Origin: Bacteroidaceae bacterium
GTDB lineage: Bacteria; Bacteroidota; Bacteroidia; Bacteroidales; Bacteroidaceae
Reading direction: 5' to 3'
Length of the DNA stretch: 64,000 nucleotides
NCBI GenBank assembly: GCA_017559845.1
Contig: JAFYQQ010000014.1
Span: 1-64,000, forward strand
Shown: positions 31,845 through 42,788 of the stretch, piece by piece
Layout: every line of letters begins with the position of its first letter
Position numbering within the stretch: the stretch's first letter is position 1
Notes under the pieces: model-generated
Database searches by the model: none
What the model was told of the DNA's origin: nothing
Seen by the model: only the letters and a program-made list of their open reading frames with translations
Position numbers and translations under genes: made by a program

Positions 31845-33098
31845 TCAATTTTCCGTCAGCCACTTCCAAACCGGTACCACGGGTATTTCGTCCTTCGTGT
31901 CCTCCTCATCATACGTAATCAGCAAGCATTTCCAATCCTCGTGCGCCTTGGCATACTTCACCAGTGGCGGTACCTCTCTATTGTAAGTGGTCTCCTCCTT
32001 GATGCTATACGACACCTGGATAGCAAGCTTCTCATCGGGCACAATAAAGTCTATCTCCTTATCAGCATTCAGATAATACACATTCTCCTTGCCGTATCGT
32101 CTGAATAGTTCCACCGCTACCATGTTCTCCATCAGCGACGTTTCTGGATTCATTATAAACAGGTTCAACAAACCGTTGTCAATAAAGTAGTACTTCTTCT
32201 GCATCTCCTTCTCCGTCAACTTTCCGACCTCGTTCTCCATGGGCAGTATCAGCCAACTATCAGCTGCATATCCCGCATAGTCAATCGTCGTTGGGACACT
32301 GAGAGCCGACCCCGTAGATACAATCACATTCCTTAAGCGGTTAAACGAAAGAGGCTGCTTCACACTCTCTGCCATTTTCTTGATCAGGATGTTCATCACG
32401 CGGTCATTTTTGATATTGTTTCGTGCGCAGATATCGCCCAAGTAAATTTTCTGGTAAAGACTTGAAAGCATGGCGCGCTTATTCTTGAACGACTGGATCT
32501 CTGGCAGACCGCCGTAATAAAAGTATTCATTCAAATGCCGCTTCACCTCACTTCTCTGGATAGTGTCATACTCCCAATGTTCTTTCAGTTCCACCTGCTG
32601 CGCTGCCAGAAACTCTTTGAATGAATATGGATACGCATCATAGATAAAGAATCGTCCGCCAAGCGTAGTTGCCACCTCCTTGCTCAGCATCTTCGCATTG
32701 CTGCCCGTCACATAAACCCTGTATTTCGCATCAGTCAACCTCCGTACGAACTTATCCCAGTGTGGAATGTTCTGCACCTCGTCCAAAAACACCACAGGCT
32801 TCTTGCCATACAGTTCCAGATGTGCCTCCAGCAGACTGTTGAAGTCCTCCGTTTGAAACTCAGCCAGACGCTCATCCTCAAAGTCTACAAACAATATCTC
32901 GTCCCACCCCTTTCCGGAAGCCTGTAGCTGACGTACACGCTGATACAGCAAGTACGATTTACCTGCATGCCTCACGCCAACTATCACATAGTTGCCGTTC
33001 TCTTCGAATTCTACGGGACGGTTCACAATCACCGCCTCATCTACCTCGCGTTGCTTACTAATCAGGCATTGTTTGATGACATCCTTACTGATACTCAT
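31845..33098 (-). CDS. AAA+ ATPase with DUF4143 C-terminus (copy 1)
   Basis: 417 residues. Walker A is GVRHAGKSYLL (residues 41-50) and Walker B is VVFLDEVQNIPHW. A winged-helix-like middle and the DUF4143 C-terminal domain follow (YYFIDNGLLNLF, then EIDFIVPDEKLAIQVSYS, which resembles a decayed PD-(D/E)xK nuclease core). These proteins are common in Bacteroidota genomes and often occur as single, variable, accessory genes; their biological role is not settled. A perfect -7 box is found upstream within the 112-bp repeat at 33111-33222. A related but clearly diverged copy lies at 41550-42788. Confidence 0.9.
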   Translation of the reverse strand: MSISKDVIKQCLISKQREVDEAVIVNRPVEFEENGNYVIVGVRHAGKSYLLYQRVRQLQASGKGWDEILFVDFEDERLAEFQTEDFNSLLEAHLELYGKKPVVFLDEVQNIPHWDKFVRRLTDAKYRVYVTGSNAKMLSKEVATTLGGRFFIYDAYPYSFKEFLAAQQVELKEHWEYDTIQRSEVKRHLNEYFYYGGLPEIQSFKNKRAMLSSLYQKIYLGDICARNNIKNDRVMNILIKKMAESVKQPLSFNRLRNVIVSTGSALSVPTTIDYAGYAADSWLILPMENEVGKLTEKEMQKKYYFIDNGLLNLFIMNPETSLMENMVAVELFRRYGKENVYYLNADKEIDFIVPDEKLAIQVSYSIKEETTYNREVPPLVKYAKAHEDWKCLLITYDEEDTKDEIPVVPVWKWLTEN

Positions 33099-33802: not shown

Positions 33803-33804
33803 AT

Positions 33805-33818
33805 TTGATAAAAATCAA
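33805..33818. promoter_or_regulatory. FNR/Crp-type operator TTGAT-N4-ATCAA
   Basis: TTGATAAAAATCAA is a perfect match to the FNR consensus TTGATnnnnATCAA, extended to ATTTGAT/ATCAAAT. Its centre lies about 80 bp before the transcription start predicted from the -7 box at 33880. The Crp/Fnr regulator encoded at 35092-35694 carries E-x-x-S-R in its recognition helix, the combination that reads TTGAT in FNR. Confidence 0.65.
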
Positions 33819-33879
33819 ATAAAACGACTAAACATGTTTTTTTAACCTTTTTTTTACCTAGTTTGAATTACATTTGCCA

Positions 33880-33887
33880 TATCTTTG
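33880..33887 (+). promoter_or_regulatory. -7 promoter element of the small-peptide cluster
   Basis: TATCTTTG, a perfect TAnnTTTG match followed by C, predicts transcription from about 33893, 170 nt before the first peptide gene. The only upstream TTTG (33862-33865) is closer than usual, as might be expected for an activator-dependent promoter. Confidence 0.55.
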
Positions 33888-34028
33888 CACCGAAAAAGAA
33901 AAAACAGAATAATAGGAAAAGTTAATAAATCATAACAAATAGTAATAAAATACGGTTTAAATAGGCATAATAATGGTGATTGCCTGAGTAATAATATCAA
34001 ATTGTTAGAGAAGAAAAATGAAAAATCT

Positions 34029-34046
34029 TTCCTCTTTAGAGAGGAA
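34029..34046 (+). promoter_or_regulatory. RNA hairpin before peptide gene 1
   Basis: TTCCTCT pairs perfectly with AGAGGAA around a TTAG loop and ends 16 nt before the start codon of the first peptide gene. Confidence 0.65.
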
Positions 34047-34062
34047 CTAAATTTTGAAATGT

Positions 34063-34197
34063 ATGAAAAAGATCGTATTGTTTTTAAGTACTGTATTTGC
34101 TAAAGATTATACTAATTCTAATGAGTGTAAGAACAAGATTAACTTTTGGTGTCCGACAGGAATGATGCCTGTCTTTTGTGATTTTCAAGCAAAATAA
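34063..34197 (+). CDS. Small peptide 1, CPTGM core family
   Basis: 44 residues, MKKIVLFLSTVFAKDYTNSN at the N-terminus and NFWCPTGMMPVFCDFQAK at the C-terminus. I do not recognise a named family. The two following genes share the N-terminal M(K/R)KIV and the C-terminal block (I)N(F/Y)(W/L)CPTGMxP(V/I)F while the middle differs, a leader-plus-core layout like that of ribosomal peptide precursors. A hydrophobic N-terminal stretch in this copy (IVLFLSTVFA) could be a short export signal. No modifying enzyme is adjacent. Coding status is supported by the conserved start, stop and core across three tandem copies. Confidence 0.8.
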   Translation: MKKIVLFLSTVFAKDYTNSNECKNKINFWCPTGMMPVFCDFQAK

Positions 34198-34260
34198 AGA
34201 TTACAATAAATCTTGTAAATAATAGAGCGCCGTGAATTGACTGCTCAGAAATAATAACTT

Positions 34261-34279
34261 TCTCTCGCAATTAGAGAGA
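34261..34279 (+). promoter_or_regulatory. RNA hairpin before peptide gene 2
   Basis: TCTCTC pairs with GAGAGA around GCAATTA and ends 15 nt before the start codon. The stem sequence differs from the first and third hairpins while position and shape are kept. Confidence 0.65.
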
Positions 34280-34294
34280 CTAAATCAGATAGGT

Positions 34295-34432
34295 ATGAGA
34301 AAGATTGTAGATTATATTGGTTTTATATTTTCAAATCACCCTACTAATTTGAATACCAATAGCTGTAACTGTATCAACTTTTGGTGTCCAACAGGGATGA
34401 ATCCTATATTCCATCATCAAATTAAGAACTAA
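34295..34432 (+). CDS. Small peptide 2, CPTGM core family
   Basis: 45 residues, starting MRKIVDYIGFIFSNHPTN and ending INFWCPTGMNPIFHHQIKN. It has the shared M(K/R)KIV start and the conserved NFWCPTGM core, with two extra cysteines just before it (NSCNC). The usual DF after the core is replaced by HHQ. It follows peptide gene 1 by 97 bp and is preceded by the positioned hairpin and the words GGTATGAGAAAGATTGTA, which are also found at gene 3. Function unknown; possibly a signal peptide, toxin or modified peptide precursor. Confidence 0.8.
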   Translation: MRKIVDYIGFIFSNHPTNLNTNSCNCINFWCPTGMNPIFHHQIKN

Positions 34433-34480
34433 TGGAATAATAGAACTTAGGCAGTCACCAATTATAATTAGTATTAACCC

Positions 34481-34499
34481 ACTCTTTACTTTAAAGAGT
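34481..34499 (+). promoter_or_regulatory. RNA hairpin before peptide gene 3
   Basis: ACTCTTTA pairs with TAAAGAGT around a 3-nt loop and ends 15 nt before the start codon. Together with the other two hairpins it shows compensating base changes. Just upstream, CTTAGGCAGTCACC (34446-34459) can pair over 14 positions (two G-U) with GGTGATTGCCTGAG at 33975-33988 in the 5' leader. Confidence 0.65.
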
Positions 34500-34514
34500 T
34501 AAATAATTAGAGGT

Positions 34515-34637
34515 ATGAGAAAGATTGTAAAAAAGACTAATATAGTTGATAACAAAACATTGAAAATAAATTATTTGTGTCCTACTGGTATGATTCCTGT
34601 ATTCTATGACTTTAAGTCAAACAAGAAAGGACAGTAA
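34515..34637 (+). CDS. Small peptide 3, CPTGM core family
   Basis: 40 residues, starting MRKIVKKTNIVDNKTLKI and ending INYLCPTGMIPVFYDFKS followed by NKKGQ. The core carries Y-L in place of F-W but keeps CPTGM-x-PVF-x-DF. The N-terminal part is hydrophilic and lysine-rich, so it lacks the possible export stretch of peptide 1. Its shared gene start (GGTATGAGAAAGATTGTA) with peptide 2 marks recent tandem duplication. No function is assigned. Confidence 0.8.
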   Translation: MRKIVKKTNIVDNKTLKINYLCPTGMIPVFYDFKSNKKGQ

Positions 34638-34701
34638 ATAGATTATGGTTTATGCATAGTTTGCAATAGGTAAAAAGATTTTTAAGGAAAATAAAGTATG
34701 T

Positions 34702-34796
34702 GGCATGCTAAAAAGTGATTTTTATATAAGTACTTGCTTTTAGCCAAACAAAAGAAGCAACTTCAATATAATAAAACACACACTTTTTAGTTTGCC
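34702..34796 (+). ncRNA. Candidate structured RNA between peptide genes 3 and 4
   Basis: GGCATGCTAAAAAGTG (34702-34717) pairs with CACTTTTTAGTTTGCC (34781-34796) at 14 of 16 positions. Inside, TTGCTTTT (34734-34741) pairs with AAAAGAAGCAA (34750-34760) with one bulged A. This is an ordered two-level stem in a 217-bp gap without a gene; it could be a leader or processing element for peptide gene 4 or a small RNA. Confidence 0.45.
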
Positions 34797-34854
34797 CTTA
34801 TTATTTGGAATGAGACAAGGCATAACCATTAGTTGTATATAGTAAGATTAAATT

Positions 34855-34992
34855 ATGAAAACATTCGGCTCTAAACTACAAAACATTTTTGGTAATAACA
34901 AGGATAATCGTTTGAATTCAATAAGAGATTCTAATGGTAATAGTAAAGAATGTATTGTAGTGGAATATGATAATGACGACGATGATGACTAA
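34855..34992 (+). CDS. Small acidic-tail peptide 4
   Basis: 45 residues, MKTFGSKLQNIFGNNKDNRL at the N-terminus and KECIVVEYDNDDDDD at the C-terminus. It does not share the CPTGM core and I do not recognise it. It has one cysteine and ends in five aspartates, an unusual composition for a random frame. It lies on the same strand as the CPTGM peptides and directly before the shared terminator, so it is probably the last gene of that transcript. It may be an immunity, carrier or second precursor peptide; this is only inference. Confidence 0.65.
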   Translation: MKTFGSKLQNIFGNNKDNRLNSIRDSNGNSKECIVVEYDNDDDDD

Positions 34993-35025
34993 CTACTTAC
35001 TAATCCAAAGCTTTTATGTTAAAGA

Positions 35026-35061
35026 AATAGGCCAGGGTTTGTCCTGACCTATTATTGTTTT
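35026..35061 (+). terminator. Terminator of the small-peptide cluster
   Basis: AATAGGCCAGG (35026-35036) pairs with CCTGACCTATT (35043-35053) with one internal C-A mismatch, followed by ATTGTTTTT. Confidence 0.8.
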
Positions 35062-35091: not shown

Positions 35092-35694
35092 TTATTTAGA
35101 CTCAGAATTGGCTATTGAAGCACGAACCCTGCTTAATGTTTCCAATGTCATCTGTAGATAAGAAGCAATCATCGTTAAAGGTGCTCTTTTAGTTATTTCT
35201 GGAAAATGTTGTTGTAATCTGGCATATCTGTCATTTGCAGACTCAAAACGTAAAATGTCAGCCTTCAATTGTGATAACATTAAAGAATTTTCAAAAAATC
35301 TCCGATATAAATAGGCAATATCTCCATTTGTATCGGAAAGTTCTTCCATTATATCACGCGGGATTTCCCATAAAACACTTTTTTCTACAGCATCCATCAT
35401 AAGATGTGTTGGTTCTCGGTTAAAATAGCTATCAATACACCAAACAACATCTTTTTCACAAGCTAAATGTTCAATCACATCTTTACCATGCTTTAGGTAA
35501 TGTTGTCGAATAAATCCATTTTCTATATAAAATAGACAGTTACAGATATCACCATCATTTAGAATAATATCACCTTTTTGATATTTCTTAGGCTGAATAA
35601 TATCTGCAAAAAGGCGAATATTCTCCAACTTCAGTTTGCGATTAGGGCATGTTTCCCCTATTATCTGTTTTGCGACATCAAATTGAAGACTCAT
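35092..35694 (-). CDS. Crp/Fnr-family transcriptional regulator
   Basis: 200 residues. A cyclic-nucleotide-binding-type beta roll occupies residues about 25-110 (KGDIILNDGDICNCLFYIENGF), then a dimer helix and a C-terminal helix-turn-helix, APLTMIASYLQMTLETLSRVRA. The recognition helix has E185-x-x-S188-R189, as in FNR, rather than the CRP pattern. Five cysteines (16, 51, 53, 79, 86) are present but not in the FNR iron-sulfur arrangement. It starts 9 bp after the SusD stop, so it is the third gene of a SusC-SusD-regulator operon. A perfect TTGAT-N4-ATCAA site occurs upstream of the neighbouring peptide cluster. Confidence 0.9.
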   Translation of the reverse strand: MSLQFDVAKQIIGETCPNRKLKLENIRLFADIIQPKKYQKGDIILNDGDICNCLFYIENGFIRQHYLKHGKDVIEHLACEKDVVWCIDSYFNREPTHLMMDAVEKSVLWEIPRDIMEELSDTNGDIAYLYRRFFENSLMLSQLKADILRFESANDRYARLQQHFPEITKRAPLTMIASYLQMTLETLSRVRASIANSESK

Positions 35695-35703
35695 AGGCCA
35701 AAT

Positions 35704-37320
35704 TTATTTATATCCAACATTTTGTTTTAACTTCGGATTCAAGTCTATGCTTTTTTGTGGAATAGGAAAAACAGTGGTATATCCATTTCCCTCATCTGGC
35801 AATTGAATTCGTTGGTCGTAGGATTTATGATAAAGTCCAAAGCGCACCAGATCTTGTCGTCGCCAGCCTTCCCATACCAACTCCAACAAACGCTCTTCCA
35901 ATATGTTTTCAAGAGTTGCCTTACGATACGGCATTCCCACTCTGTTGCGCACTTCATTCAGCTCCAACGAACCATCTTCCCCGTTACGGGCTTTTGCCTC
36001 TGCTTTCATCAAGAGGGCATCAGCATAGCGGAACAATACAATATCGTTATCGGGTTGTCGTCCGTCGGAATGAGAGGTGCGATCCACCTCATATTTTGCC
36101 ATTCGCGCACCGGCTGTTTTAACATAGGGGCTTCCTGTAAGATTTAGCTTCAATTCTAAAGGATGATACTCCAAAGGTTTCCCATTATCCATCATTATGG
36201 TCTTGCCATCAACTTCAACTATTCCGGCATAAAAGTTCTTTTCGAAGCGTGTGTCTACTTTATCTGTGCCATATCCATAGGCTAAGACGGTTGAGATATT
36301 GGCACTAGTACCATTCTCTGATGATCCGCCAAGCGCTCCACCGTGATTGTAGTGCCGAGAACGAAACAGATACCAGAACTGTGCTGCATAGAGGTTCTTA
36401 TCCAATGGGATAGTGAAGATGTTTTCATTGGAGTTCTCGTTGTGAACAGCAAAATTATAGCTATAATCGCCTTCTAGCTGATAGCCAGCCTCGGCGAGCT
36501 TATCGCAATATCTTATACAAGTTTGCCAAGCGTTGAGCTGTTCGCCATCAACGGTAAAAAATATCTCTTTGCCGTTTTGGGGCACACCATCGGTCCAATT
36601 GTCGTCACAATATATTTCGGCATTGAGAGCCAATTTTGCTAATAGAAAATGTACGACGGGCGTAGTTACGCGACCATAGTAGTTTCCCATCTTATTACTT
36701 CTCTCGTTGGGTAACAGGTTCATCACCTCTTGCAGCTCATTAACGATAAATCGGAAAACTTCGCTGCGCTCACTCTGCAATACCTCATTTTGCGCTTGCT
36801 CATACGATGTCACAAGAGGAACTCTACCATACATATCTATTATGTAGTAGTAGAATAGTGCTCTTATAGCTCGAACTTCTGCCTCATAAGCCGTTTTCTG
36901 CTCTATTGTCAGATGATGACTGTATTTATCAATTACCGATAGTGACTTGTTTGATAATACGATGACTTTGTATAAATACTTCCAAGTATTGTACAATGGT
37001 AAATCGTTAGGATTCCATTTATGCTGATACATATTTTCCCACAAACCGCCGTCGTACCAGTCACCACCTCGGATTGGTATCATCGCTTCATCGGTAGTCA
37101 ATGTGTTATAATCATAGAGACCACGACAAGTTCCCTGCAAGCCTTCACTGTCGGCACTACCACCAATGTAGTTGTAGAGTACGGCCACAGCATTAATATA
37201 TATATTGTTGGCATTGTTGTAAATGTCATCCTCGTAGAGCTGATCTCTGGGATCTTCTGTAAGACAAGAGGTCATTATCATCGCAATAGCAATAGCAAAT
37301 ATGTTATAAAATCGTCTCAT
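35704..37320 (-). CDS. RagB/SusD family outer-membrane lipoprotein
   Basis: About 538 residues. The start is placed at the ATG giving MRRFYNIFAIAIAMIMTSCL, a good lipoprotein signal with Cys in MTSC; ATG at 37326 (MIMRRF...) is an alternative. SusD features include the tetratricopeptide-like helices (LYNTWKYLYKVIVLSNKSL, AEVRAIRALFYYYIIDMYGRVP), the late DIVLFRYADALLMKAEAKAR and the C-terminal RLLELVWEGWRRQDLVRFG. It acts as the lid of the SusC channel at the cell surface. It follows the SusC gene with no gap. Ligand unknown; the peptide cluster next door suggests peptides. Confidence 0.92.
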   Translation of the reverse strand: MRRFYNIFAIAIAMIMTSCLTEDPRDQLYEDDIYNNANNIYINAVAVLYNYIGGSADSEGLQGTCRGLYDYNTLTTDEAMIPIRGGDWYDGGLWENMYQHKWNPNDLPLYNTWKYLYKVIVLSNKSLSVIDKYSHHLTIEQKTAYEAEVRAIRALFYYYIIDMYGRVPLVTSYEQAQNEVLQSERSEVFRFIVNELQEVMNLLPNERSNKMGNYYGRVTTPVVHFLLAKLALNAEIYCDDNWTDGVPQNGKEIFFTVDGEQLNAWQTCIRYCDKLAEAGYQLEGDYSYNFAVHNENSNENIFTIPLDKNLYAAQFWYLFRSRHYNHGGALGGSSENGTSANISTVLAYGYGTDKVDTRFEKNFYAGIVEVDGKTIMMDNGKPLEYHPLELKLNLTGSPYVKTAGARMAKYEVDRTSHSDGRQPDNDIVLFRYADALLMKAEAKARNGEDGSLELNEVRNRVGMPYRKATLENILEERLLELVWEGWRRQDLVRFGLYHKSYDQRIQLPDEGNGYTTVFPIPQKSIDLNPKLKQNVGYK

Positions 37321-37332
37321 AATCATATGCAA

Positions 37333-40029
37333 TTAGAATTGAACACTAAAACCTAATGCGTAGGTGCGGTACAAAGGATAGGTGCGTTTGTCATCAATAC
37401 CTAAAGTACTACTTACAACATAACTATTTATCATAGGTGTAAGCCCACTGTAACCTGTAATCGTTGCTAAGTTGCTGATACTTGCAGACAAGCGTAATGA
37501 TTTCACAGATTTGGATTTCATTGGGACATTGAATCCTACTGTCAGATGCTCAATATTGATATAATCACCTTTTTCCAACCAAAAATCAGAGATATTTTGG
37601 TCTATGATATTTTTTTCCGGTGCGTCCTTTAATACATTGTAATCCGGGAATATGGACATGTTGGTATACGCCAAGCCCGTACCGTTGAATATCTTGTGGC
37701 CGAAAGCTCCATTTATCTGCACGGCGACATCAAAAAACTTGTATCGGAAACTGAGATTCGAACCAATGGTAACTTTGGGTGTTGCTTGGCCTGCTATATA
37801 TCTATCTCCACCATCGCTGAGATCCACTGTGCCATCCTCATTCAGGTCTTTGATATCATAACTATAACCGCCAATATCATTTTTTTGCAATCCAGTGCAA
37901 TGAGGAAGATAAAAGACTCCCAACGGTTGTCCTACAATCTGATATACAACATTATTATTACCTCCATTCTGGCCTGCTCCATATAGCGAGCCAATCGGGG
38001 TAATGTTGGGTGCAGTCATCTGCATTCCATTATACTCTCCACTAAGTGAAAGTAGTTTATTTTTTTGGTAGGACATGTTGAAATTTATGTTCATCTCCAT
38101 GTCCTTACGTTGGATAGGTACTACCGAGATACCCAATTCAACACCTTGGTTAGACATTGAACCAATGTTTGCCATCAACTTATCAAAAGCAAAGCTGGGT
38201 ACGGGAACATCATATTCATAGAGCATATCGGTTGTCTTTGAATAGTAGAATTCCGATGTGAGCATCAAACGGTTACTCCATAGACCTAAATCAAATCCGA
38301 TATTAAATGTTGAGCGGGTTTCCCACTTAAGGTTCGGATTTGTGTTTTTGATACTCCCCATTGTAACTGTAGGAGCTCCATTGATTGATACTATTCCATT
38401 TTCCTTGACAGTGTTCAATGTTGTGTAGGATTTTATACCCCCAAGATTACCCGATTGACCGTATCCTGTTCGAAGCTTTAACATTGTGACAAAATCCACA
38501 TCCGAAAGGAGGTTTTCTTTCTTTATATCCCAACTTAATGATACAGAAGGGAAAAAACCAAATGTGTTGTTATCACTCACCATTGAAGAACCATCACTTC
38601 GAAGTGTGGCCGAGACAGCATATCTGTTCTTGTAGCTATATGTAGTACCACCCATAATAGAGGCAAGCGACGGATCCTCATAGCTGCTACCCGTAGCACC
38701 GAAAGGACGCGATGACGTTGCCCCAATATTATTATATGAGAAATCATTTGTGGTTATTCCTTTTGCCTGAACCCATAAACCAGTTCTGACTTGCTTAAGG
38801 TATTCGCTGCTCACCGTTGCCTCCAAATGAGAATCGCCCCAAGTGTTGTTATATGAGAGTGCTATATTAGTAAAATAATCCTCACCTTTGAACTCGCCAC
38901 GATAGACATTTCCCTGTGCCCACACCCAGGTAGGACAAAATTGAGCATTACCGGTAGAAGAGTATGAATAGGAACCAAATGCCGATAAATTCAAATTATC
39001 AAGAAGATTAAATTTCAATCCTAAATGTGTGTTGAAATTCATCTCCTTTGAATCGTTTTTCTCATCAAGAAGAATTCCTGGGTGGTTGATATGTGAAGCA
39101 GCCGAGTTCTTTATCCAATTGCCATTCGCGTCAGGCCCGGTTGGATATGTTGGATTTTGTGCAGCCGTAGAATAGAACAACATTCGGGTGTCAAAGATAT
39201 CGTGTATCTTGGAGGAGTAACCGTACACACCAAAATCACCAATCAAACGACCATTGAAGGCCTTTTGAGTAGCATCGAGTTTTACCACAAGGTTTTGGTA
39301 ATCGTTTACCTTGACTATGGTGTTATGATCCATAAATCCAAACGAGGCTCGGTAATTGGAATTTTCAGAACCGCCACTGAATGCCAAATGGTGCTGATGT
39401 ATTAAGCCTGTACGGGTAATAACATCATGGTAGTTGGTGTTGTAACCACCGTTATTGTAGTCCAATCCAAGAGCCTCTGCCGTAGCGATATATTCTGGCC
39501 CGCTTAACATTTGCAGGTGTTTGTACATTGATTCAAAACCATAGTTCCCATCATAGGAAATCTGAAAACCTCTGCCAGTTCCTTTTTTCGTTTTAATCTC
39601 AATTACACCCGATGCACCACGAGAACCATACATAGCCGTCTCGGTAGCATTCTTTAAAATGGTGAAACTTTCAATATCAGCAGGATAGATAGTAGATAAA
39701 GTTGCAATGTCAGATGTTACGCCATCAATAATCACCAACGGGTCATTGCCGCCTATAATAGAGGTGGTACCACGTACACGAATACTGTTCAACATAGCAA
39801 GTCTGTCAGTACCGTTGGTGGTCACATTCACACCGGCAGACTGACCAATCAATACATCCAAAGCGTTGTTCATTGGCCCCTTCTTGATATTTTCGGGTCT
39901 TATATGCTCTGATGATTTTGTTACAGAAACGGTATCTTGTTTCTCACGGATACTCTGTACTTGTGCATCAATCCTTTGAGCACCACAGATGGAAAACATT
40001 AAGACAAGACATAGACAAACTCTTCCCAT
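37333..40029 (-). CDS. SusC/RagA-family TonB-dependent transporter, short form
   Basis: 898 residues with a signal peptide (MGRVCLCLVLMFSICGAQRIDA). After about 30 residues the plug domain starts directly (NALDVLIGQSAGVNV, SIRVRGTTSI, DPLVIIDGV, SFTILKNATETAMYGSRGAS), so the carboxypeptidase-regulatory-like domain that precedes the plug in most SusC proteins is absent. The 22-strand barrel and the aromatic C-terminus (ALGFSVQF) are complete. It imports a ligand across the outer membrane with TonB energy, capped by the SusD partner. It is AT-richer than the core genes. The promoter lies about 230 bp upstream. Confidence 0.92.
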   Translation of the reverse strand: MGRVCLCLVLMFSICGAQRIDAQVQSIREKQDTVSVTKSSEHIRPENIKKGPMNNALDVLIGQSAGVNVTTNGTDRLAMLNSIRVRGTTSIIGGNDPLVIIDGVTSDIATLSTIYPADIESFTILKNATETAMYGSRGASGVIEIKTKKGTGRGFQISYDGNYGFESMYKHLQMLSGPEYIATAEALGLDYNNGGYNTNYHDVITRTGLIHQHHLAFSGGSENSNYRASFGFMDHNTIVKVNDYQNLVVKLDATQKAFNGRLIGDFGVYGYSSKIHDIFDTRMLFYSTAAQNPTYPTGPDANGNWIKNSAASHINHPGILLDEKNDSKEMNFNTHLGLKFNLLDNLNLSAFGSYSYSSTGNAQFCPTWVWAQGNVYRGEFKGEDYFTNIALSYNNTWGDSHLEATVSSEYLKQVRTGLWVQAKGITTNDFSYNNIGATSSRPFGATGSSYEDPSLASIMGGTTYSYKNRYAVSATLRSDGSSMVSDNNTFGFFPSVSLSWDIKKENLLSDVDFVTMLKLRTGYGQSGNLGGIKSYTTLNTVKENGIVSINGAPTVTMGSIKNTNPNLKWETRSTFNIGFDLGLWSNRLMLTSEFYYSKTTDMLYEYDVPVPSFAFDKLMANIGSMSNQGVELGISVVPIQRKDMEMNINFNMSYQKNKLLSLSGEYNGMQMTAPNITPIGSLYGAGQNGGNNNVVYQIVGQPLGVFYLPHCTGLQKNDIGGYSYDIKDLNEDGTVDLSDGGDRYIAGQATPKVTIGSNLSFRYKFFDVAVQINGAFGHKIFNGTGLAYTNMSIFPDYNVLKDAPEKNIIDQNISDFWLEKGDYINIEHLTVGFNVPMKSKSVKSLRLSASISNLATITGYSGLTPMINSYVVSSTLGIDDKRTYPLYRTYALGFSVQF

Positions 40030-41549: not shown

Positions 41550-42788
41550 CTAATTTAGAAGGTAATCAAAAACATTCATCATTATAATGCCATTGGGCAT
41601 AGTATGCGTCGGTATCTCATCTGTTGTGATAATAATTTTTGTAAAAGAGTCGTCTGTTAGGGTTAGTGAGCGTTGTTCCTGTTTCTGTTTATCTTCATCT
41701 GGCAAAGAATAAGCAGATTGTATATACACCCTTTCACTGCCTCTATTACAAACGAAATCAACCTCAAGTGTGGTTCTGGTCGTCTTGCCTTCATCGTCTT
41801 TTTGATATAAAGTAACGCAGCCTACATCTACCTTGTAGCCTTTACCTGTCAAATGGTTATATATGATATTCTCCATAATATGAGTAGGTTCCACTTGTCG
41901 GAAATTTAAAAGTGCATTACGCAACCCAAGGTCAGCAAAATAATATTTGTAAGGAGTGTCTATATACTTCTTTCCTTTAATATCATAGCGTACTGCTTTA
42001 TTGATGAGGAAAGAATCAATAAAATAGTCTATATATGTTTTTATTGTATTGTGGCTTATTTTCACCTTTTTCTCACTAACAAATGTGTTTGCTAGTTTGT
42101 TGGGATTAGTCAATGCTCCTATATTAGAAGCCAAGAGAGAGAATAGTTCTTCTAATTCAGCATCATTTTTCACATTGTTGCGGTTGATTATATCGCTTAA
42201 ATATGTCTCTTTAAGTAACTCTTGAAGTATTTCTGCTTTTCGTGCTTTATCCTTCTCAATGACAACCATTGGCAACCCTCCGTAATAAATGTAATCTCGC
42301 CACAATGAAGATGTGTCATCATTTGACTTTTCTTTTATTTCCTTAAACGATAGCGGCAGGAGGTGGATTTGAACTCCGCGTCCTCTAAACTCGGTAACGA
42401 TATCAGAAGAAAGGAACTTTGCATTACTTCCTGTTACATATACATCAAGGTTGTCAATATGTAGAAAACCATTGAGTACATCTACGAAATCCTCCAGCAT
42501 CTGTACTTCGTCAATAATCACATAATACATCTGCGCATCTTGCTTTGTCAGATTTTCGATATATTCATATAACGTTTCTGCCTTGCGATATTTGCGATGA
42601 GCAAATGAGTCTAGTTTTATTTCGATGATATGGCTGGCATCAACATCGTTATCTAAAAGATGTTGTTTATAAAGGTTGAGTAGCAGGTACGATTTGCCAA
42701 CACGTCGTAACCCAGTAACAATCTTTATCAAATGATTATGCTTGCTACTTATCAACTTTTCAATGTAATGTTCTCTTTCGAATTTCAT
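41550..42788 (-). CDS. AAA+ ATPase with DUF4143 C-terminus (copy 2)
   Basis: 412 residues. Walker A is GLRRVGKSYLLL (residues 26-37) and Walker B YVIIDEVQMLEDF; sensor-like GSNAKFLSSDIV and the DUF4143 region with YYFADLGLRNALL and EVDFVCNRGSERVYIQ follow. Same family as the gene at 31845-33098 but only distantly similar overall, so not a recent duplicate. Its promoter (TATATTTG on the minus strand, 42835-42828) lies between two identical 14-bp palindromes, pointing to tight repression. Biological role unknown. Confidence 0.9.
   Translation of the reverse strand: MKFEREHYIEKLISSKHNHLIKIVTGLRRVGKSYLLLNLYKQHLLDNDVDASHIIEIKLDSFAHRKYRKAETLYEYIENLTKQDAQMYYVIIDEVQMLEDFVDVLNGFLHIDNLDVYVTGSNAKFLSSDIVTEFRGRGVQIHLLPLSFKEIKEKSNDDTSSLWRDYIYYGGLPMVVIEKDKARKAEILQELLKETYLSDIINRNNVKNDAELEELFSLLASNIGALTNPNKLANTFVSEKKVKISHNTIKTYIDYFIDSFLINKAVRYDIKGKKYIDTPYKYYFADLGLRNALLNFRQVEPTHIMENIIYNHLTGKGYKVDVGCVTLYQKDDEGKTTRTTLEVDFVCNRGSERVYIQSAYSLPDEDKQKQEQRSLTLTDDSFTKIIITTDEIPTHTMPNGIIMMNVFDYLLN

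Follow-up and report, generated by a model that had tools for sequence, protein, structure and literature searches.

The window, i.e. the whole stretch of 64,000 nucleotides analysed here, carries three small ORFs in tandem on its plus strand, encoding peptides of 44, 45 and 40 residues in that order (Table 1). All three begin with M(K/R)KIV and contain the core N(F/Y)(W/L)CPTGMxP(V/I)F, which reads IN(F/Y)(W/L)CPTGMxP(V/I)F in the alignment of the three; 16 columns of this alignment are invariant. At the DNA level (38 nt), the core of copy 1 shares 82% identity with that of copy 2 and 76% with that of copy 3. The ORF calls and the alignment bear out a first-pass annotation of this DNA, which had described three tandem genes with a shared start and core, set between a promoter and a terminator: a -7 box and a terminator-like stem are indeed found on either side of the cluster. 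A fourth small ORF of the same unit is acidic and ends in a run of Asp. Just past the terminator-like hairpin, and convergent with the peptide cluster, lies the gene of an FNR/Crp-type regulator; a SusC and a SusD gene come before it on the strand from which it is read. The minus strand also carries two AAA_14/DUF4143 ATPase genes, one on each side of the region (31845-33098 and 41550-42788).

Table 1. Features of the regulator-peptide locus (positions in the window)
Feature	Position	Strand	Basis or remark
FNR-type palindrome TTTGATAAAAATCAAA, predicted operator	33804-33819	.	sequence, comparison across clusters
Bacteroides-type -7 box TATCTTTG	33880-33887	+	TA 68.5 bp past palindrome centre
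Leader element GGTGATTGCC	33975-33984	+	complementary, with one G-U, to 34450-34459 before peptide 3
Hairpin before peptide 1	34029-34046	+	stem scan
Peptide 1 ORF, 44 aa	34063-34197	+	ORF call, alignment, profile search, dN/dS
Hairpin before peptide 2	34259-34279	+	stem scan; another scan scores the minus strand
Peptide 2 ORF, 45 aa	34295-34432	+	ORF call, alignment, dN/dS
GGCAGTCACC before peptide 3, partner of leader element	34450-34459	+	sequence
Hairpin before peptide 3	34481-34499	+	stem scan
Peptide 3 ORF, 40 aa, basic tail	34515-34637	+	ORF call, alignment, dN/dS
Long stem-loop with imperfect pairing and a conserved outer stem, after peptide 3 and before acidic ORF	34702-34796	+	
Asp-rich small ORF, 45 aa	34855-34992	+	ORF call; counterparts L034, L036, L037, L079
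Terminator-like hairpin between convergent genes	35026-35053	.	inner stem 35033-35046 scored, outer part by eye
FNR/Crp-type regulator, 200 aa, PF00027 and C-terminal helix-turn-helix	35092-35694	-	Pfam, orthologues, model
SusD-like lipoprotein gene, ends 10 bp before regulator	35704-37332	-	context
SusC-like TonB-dependent receptor	37333-40029	-	context

A profile built from the three window peptides retrieved 45 relatives at E <= 1, and 89 in a second round. A third round started from another seed alignment also gave 89, of which P0090-P0104 were new, bringing the total to about 100. Of the motif CP(T/S)GxxP, the positions C, P, T/S, G and second P hardly vary among the sequences read. G is mostly followed by M, and by A, S or E in P0058, P0060, P0070, P0072, P0074 and P0076-P0078, and the core is degraded in P0100 and P0101. 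These protein-level searches carry no taxonomy, and the lineage is known only for relatives placed in genomes, all of them Bacteroidaceae or Bacteroidales. The pattern of a conserved start and a conserved C-terminal core proposed at first reading thus holds well beyond the window, and relatives with the same core do occur in other genomes of these groups. The statement that no named family has this core also stands, as none of the families in Pfam, NCBIfam, PHROGs or Rfam fits: for 45 members NCBIfam returned no family, and the best E-values were 0.014 in Pfam (3 members), 0.017 in PHROGs (2 members) and 0.053 for the family in the PDB. A literature search found no mention of "CPTGM", and among titles and abstract openings we recognised no account of this module. 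A search of 50,697 phage and 72,556 plasmid records found nothing that matches peptide 2, and a phage or plasmid origin was set aside on that basis.

The genomes scanned are mostly MAG sequence. A genome scan yielded 13 loci, whose record titles name Bacteroidaceae, Bacteroidales or Bacteroides MAGs, goat or deer gut being the source of several. Within the family of the window, 15 of 301 genomes match at E <= 0.01; the weak matches in G437, G549 and G600 (L087-L089) contain no CPTG ORF on reading and were attributed to chance. At the order level 4 of 393 genomes match, own genome included, and L048, L049 and L050 looked like chance on reading. A 20-base core pattern occurs in 2 of 395 genomes of the class, i.e. 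in the own genome and by chance in G1054 (L107), and, within the genus to which G669 belongs, in 6 of 61 genomes, counting the remnant in G710. Other genomes of the window's own genus gave no peptide match (E above 0.03), and none was found in the family sample either.

Codon comparisons support the ORFs as coding. The dN/dS is between 0.05 and 0.29 in 11 of 13 orthologous peptide pairs, below the value near 1 that had been named beforehand as speaking against the family, and 0.63 and 0.83 in the remaining two. In the window the paralogous pairs give higher values (0.48 and 0.45, the third being saturated). The core is more conserved than the middle of the peptides, and it is under purifying selection, since in 8 of the 13 orthologous pairs it differs synonymously and never non-synonymously. 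Codons 2-5 have no synonymous change in 11 of 13 pairs, with only about 2 synonymous sites per pair there. Chance or non-coding ORFs are ruled out by the profile matches together with this constraint. The peptide sequences, read by eye, contain neither a double-glycine leader nor a signal peptide or other export signal. Their predicted fold is of low confidence (mean pLDDT 57), with a short N-terminal helix at residues 3-13.

The regulator matches PF00027 (E 1e-9), and its AlphaFold model (pLDDT 93.6) has the cNMP-binding-like beta-roll and C-terminal helix-turn-helix of the FNR/Crp family; the best Foldseek match is A. fischeri FNR (TM 0.80). The recognition helix has the sequence ETLSR, of which E, L, S and R are invariant in 16 aligned sequences, and E..SR is the reading pattern of the recognition helix of E. 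coli FNR. Cysteines lie near positions 16, 51, 79 and 86 in ten close orthologues aligned; only C86 is invariant in all 16, and the regulator of L043, outside this alignment, lacks the third. We take their spacing to differ from that of the four cysteines which hold the iron-sulfur cluster of oxygen-sensing FNR.

An orthologue of this regulator faces the peptides in 11 of the 13 loci of the genome scan. The two exceptions are L038, whose contig ends 422 bases after the peptide, and L044, where the regulator is left as two short frames. The convergent regulator is also found in the window, G669, G583 and G1119, and by coordinates in G624. When the neighbours of 14 loci were clustered, the regulator was present at 12 and was the sole gene recurring across lineages, the next gene being present at 6. 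Peptide matches at E <= 1e-4 occur in 12 family genomes, and in 10 of these the regulator reaches E <= 1e-60; at the latter threshold it occurs in 13 of the 301 family genomes, nine of which have the peptides. The first-pass annotation had noted the absence of an adjacent maturation enzyme, and indeed none recurs among the clustered neighbours of the 14 loci; it had overlooked the convergent regulator, as well as the palindrome at a fixed distance from the promoter described below.

The window's regulator shares 95% identity with orthologues from other genera (G490, G669), while within the window's genus it reached E <= 1e-60 in none of the other genomes sampled. The regulator side of the locus (35092-40029) and the whole cluster may thus have been transferred recently, or the contig may be mis-binned. 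The own genome G000 encodes another FNR/Crp-type paralogue (contig C73, 24142-24699; 44% identical), which has no peptides beside it and lies between lepA-like and prs-like genes.

All 15 clusters for which upstream sequence is available have the palindrome TTTGAYNNNNRTCAAA 5' of their first peptide, an FNR-type site at a putative target promoter of this FNR-type regulator. It is followed after 60 bp (13 clusters) or 59 bp (2 clusters) by TAnnTTTG, the -7 consensus for Bacteroides promoters (PMC7366714). The 15 clusters differ in promoter sequence, some being closely related (e.g. L045 and L046); the count leaves out L037, which starts too late, and G710, where the region is lost. In 15,000 shuffled regions the palindrome appeared 6 times and never at this spacing. 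The exact TTTGAYNNNNRTCAAA occurs once in the own 3.06-Mb genome (reversed control pattern, twice), and palindrome plus promoter are found in 10 of the 12 genomes with peptide matches, the reversed control in none of the 12.

Further sites were found in some genomes. They precede SusC in G583 and G495; in G624 one precedes a SusC start that is followed by remnants, and two more are present; in L041 one stands before an apparent decayed second leader. In L042 (953-2106) the gene of a YitT-family membrane protein has the same palindrome-promoter layout. The sites at SusC and YitT genes imply a regulon that does not always consist of the peptides alone. A YitT-like gene, by its look, is also located beside a distant regulator paralogue in L054. 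The layout was moreover detected in 13 of 119 other relatives (14 of 120 with the own genome), none of them seen to carry the module, G1143 and G1166 being outside that check. In all nine of the 13 that were read (L139-L147, from the window's genus) the site is followed by an asd-like gene, named from reading its sequence. Another FNR paralogue, or several, may therefore bind or use such sites.

RNA-level features accompany the small ORFs. Within 12-40 bases 5' of the ORF, 11 of the 17 distinct ORFs have a stem of at least 6 Watson-Crick pairs; 2000 shuffles gave 1.2 on average and 6 at most. These hairpins vary in sequence and their folding energies are mostly no lower than those of shuffles; only their position and stem length stand out. 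By eye, GATTGCC in the leader is complementary to GGCAATC before later ORFs in several loci. The long stem-loop before the acidic ORF is found in the window, L034, L036, L037 and L079. No Rfam family reached its gathering score in the window, matches in the cluster being at chance level, and a known RNA element was set aside on this basis. In place of the acidic ORF, L038-L043 have a protein of 125-133 residues (cut in L038) with a signal-peptide-like start resembling MKRLF; two of these tested gave no Pfam match above cut-off, one having a sub-threshold PoNi_N match (E 0.039). In L044-L046, L084 and L138 neither of these ORFs follows the peptide, and the peptide itself therefore looks like the product.

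The module can be duplicated or lost. G1113 has two whole modules and G1114 two, one of which ends at the contig end inside the regulator; they are the contigs of L040, L042 and L041, L043, and in both genomes regulators and peptides differ between modules. Conversely, G710, G503 and G715 encode a regulator 94-95% identical and no intact peptide cluster (L113, L115, L118), each with its own replacement or deletion. On reading their sequences, G710 keeps only a remnant of peptide 3, with an IstB-like gene at the peptide site, and G715 has an unrelated gene there; G503 retains the end of the acidic ORF and no peptides. G589 has a regulator 53% identical and no peptides. Regulators that lack intact peptides are equally compatible with a dispensable output and with a signal.

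The SusC and SusD genes are linked to the regulator in some lineages only (the window, G669, G710, G490, L041, L042 and G583). Among solved proteins, SusD (3ck7) and a SusC homologue (8aa4) are nearest to the pair and RagA ranks lower, which gives no hint of a peptide importer; the pair was not retained as importer of the module.

The best reading of these data is a dedicated one-component regulator-peptide unit, because the distance between palindrome and promoter is fixed, the regulator is convergent and whole modules are repeated. From its helix and the FNR-box-like site, the regulator would bind the palindrome, and we consider control of the peptides by the regulator highly probable. Binding would activate the peptide promoter rather than repress it, given that the palindrome lies upstream of the promoter; class I activators sit at about that distance. 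The peptides would then be the functional output of the switch and probably feed back on the regulator as the module's own signal. This last role has somewhat less than an even chance. It is suggested by the paucity of other such sites for the regulator in most genomes and by the precedent of PrfA, a Crp/Fnr regulator that takes up small peptides in an interdomain tunnel (PMC6389498). The full account, in which the regulator switches the peptides on and these act as its signal, is put forward tentatively. An extracellular signal would be without a route, no export signal or exporter having been seen. A more specific version, in which the CPTGM peptide is the direct ligand of the adjacent regulator, which in turn drives the peptide operon in a Gram-negative communication circuit, appears rather unlikely; such a ligand could perhaps be closed into a small ring through the single Cys of the core.

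Nearly as likely as the signal reading, and possible without being favoured, is that the peptides are intracellular effectors, e.g. small partners of an enzyme or membrane complex, and that the regulator senses a stress or a nutrient with no signalling involved. FNR-type regulators usually sense gases, redox or metabolites, which would fit. So would the lack of a visible export signal, the short N-terminal helix predicted with low confidence, and the linkage of the regulator gene to SusC/SusD in some lineages. However, no partner gene besides the regulator recurs across lineages, and one to three diverged copies side by side would be unusual for an effector with a single target.

The idea of a bacteriocin or of a ribosomally made and modified peptide (RiPP), raised in the first-pass annotation, is not supported. 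The small size of the peptides, their tandem diverged copies and the fact that G710, G503 and G715 have lost or replaced the cluster would be in line with it, but across lineages only the regulator recurs among the neighbours: no maturation, immunity or export gene does so beside the clusters (14 loci; neighbours clustered, partly annotated). Moreover, the core is the most conserved part of the peptides, the double-glycine motif is missing by eye, AgrB is above cut-off in 0 of 5 genomes (see below), and the two 125-133-residue neighbours tested offer no more than the sub-threshold PoNi_N match. We therefore regard this explanation as unlikely. Least probable of all, and to be held quite improbable, is that the function lies in translation or in an RNA element, the ORFs being leader peptides with a regulatory role or by-products of a structured RNA: the stems in excess of shuffles, the complementary leader element, the long stem-loop before the acidic ORF and the few synonymous changes in codons 2-5 agree with it, but the constraint along the ORFs is at the protein level, five loci (L044-L046, L084, L138) have no acidic or 125-133-residue ORF to regulate, Rfam gives no match and the hairpin energies are mostly unexceptional.

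Signalling by peptides is well documented in Gram-positive bacteria and, to our knowledge, little known in Bacteroidota, which dominate animal guts. If the peptide were the ligand of the regulator, this would be, as far as we know, the first peptide quorum-sensing with a receptor of the FNR family, and also the first such system in Bacteroidaceae. The unit is compact (a regulator, a palindrome, a fixed promoter geometry and tiny conserved peptides) and its small size would allow transfer as a whole into a laboratory strain of Bacteroides; ribosomal-peptide signalling in such bacteria is therefore directly testable. Should the peptides instead be intracellular effectors, they would still make up a new family of small proteins for which a control circuit is proposed.

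The module resembles several known systems in part. AgrD has about 45 residues, with an N-terminal amphipathic part, a hydrophobic stretch, one Cys then four residues, and a tail. The module peptides are likewise of about 45 residues, with an amphipathic N-terminus, a hydrophobic stretch with one Cys and four residues, and a tail. In contrast to AgrD, they lack its acidic tail and their regulator is FNR-type. The enzyme AgrB (PF04647) exceeded the cut-off in none of 5 genomes (sub-threshold in 2) and equally in none of 14 control genomes, so that the sensitivity of this search is unproven; on this basis an AgrD-type system with AgrB was set aside. In the Rgg-SHP and Rap-Phr systems of Gram-positive bacteria regulator genes also lie beside tiny peptide genes, and as there the unit is present more than once per genome; the module differs from them by the fold of its regulator and by the absence of a visible signal sequence on its peptide.

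With FNR, HcpR and DNR the regulator shares its fold and helix-turn-helix, and the palindrome is close to the FNR/DNR box, TTGATnnnnATCAA, and to the HcpR motif wyTTGACnnnnGTCAArw; the HcpR2 branch, which includes Bacteroides, is given another motif, GTAACnnnnGTTAC (PMC1274295). Unlike in these systems, a peptide operon stands behind the site of the module. Listeria PrfA is likewise a regulator of the Crp/Fnr family whose activity can be set by small peptides, its ligands being peptides and glutathione (PMC6389498). The peptides of PrfA are imported nutrients, whereas those of the module, whose binding to the regulator is putative, are tiny and encoded beside it.
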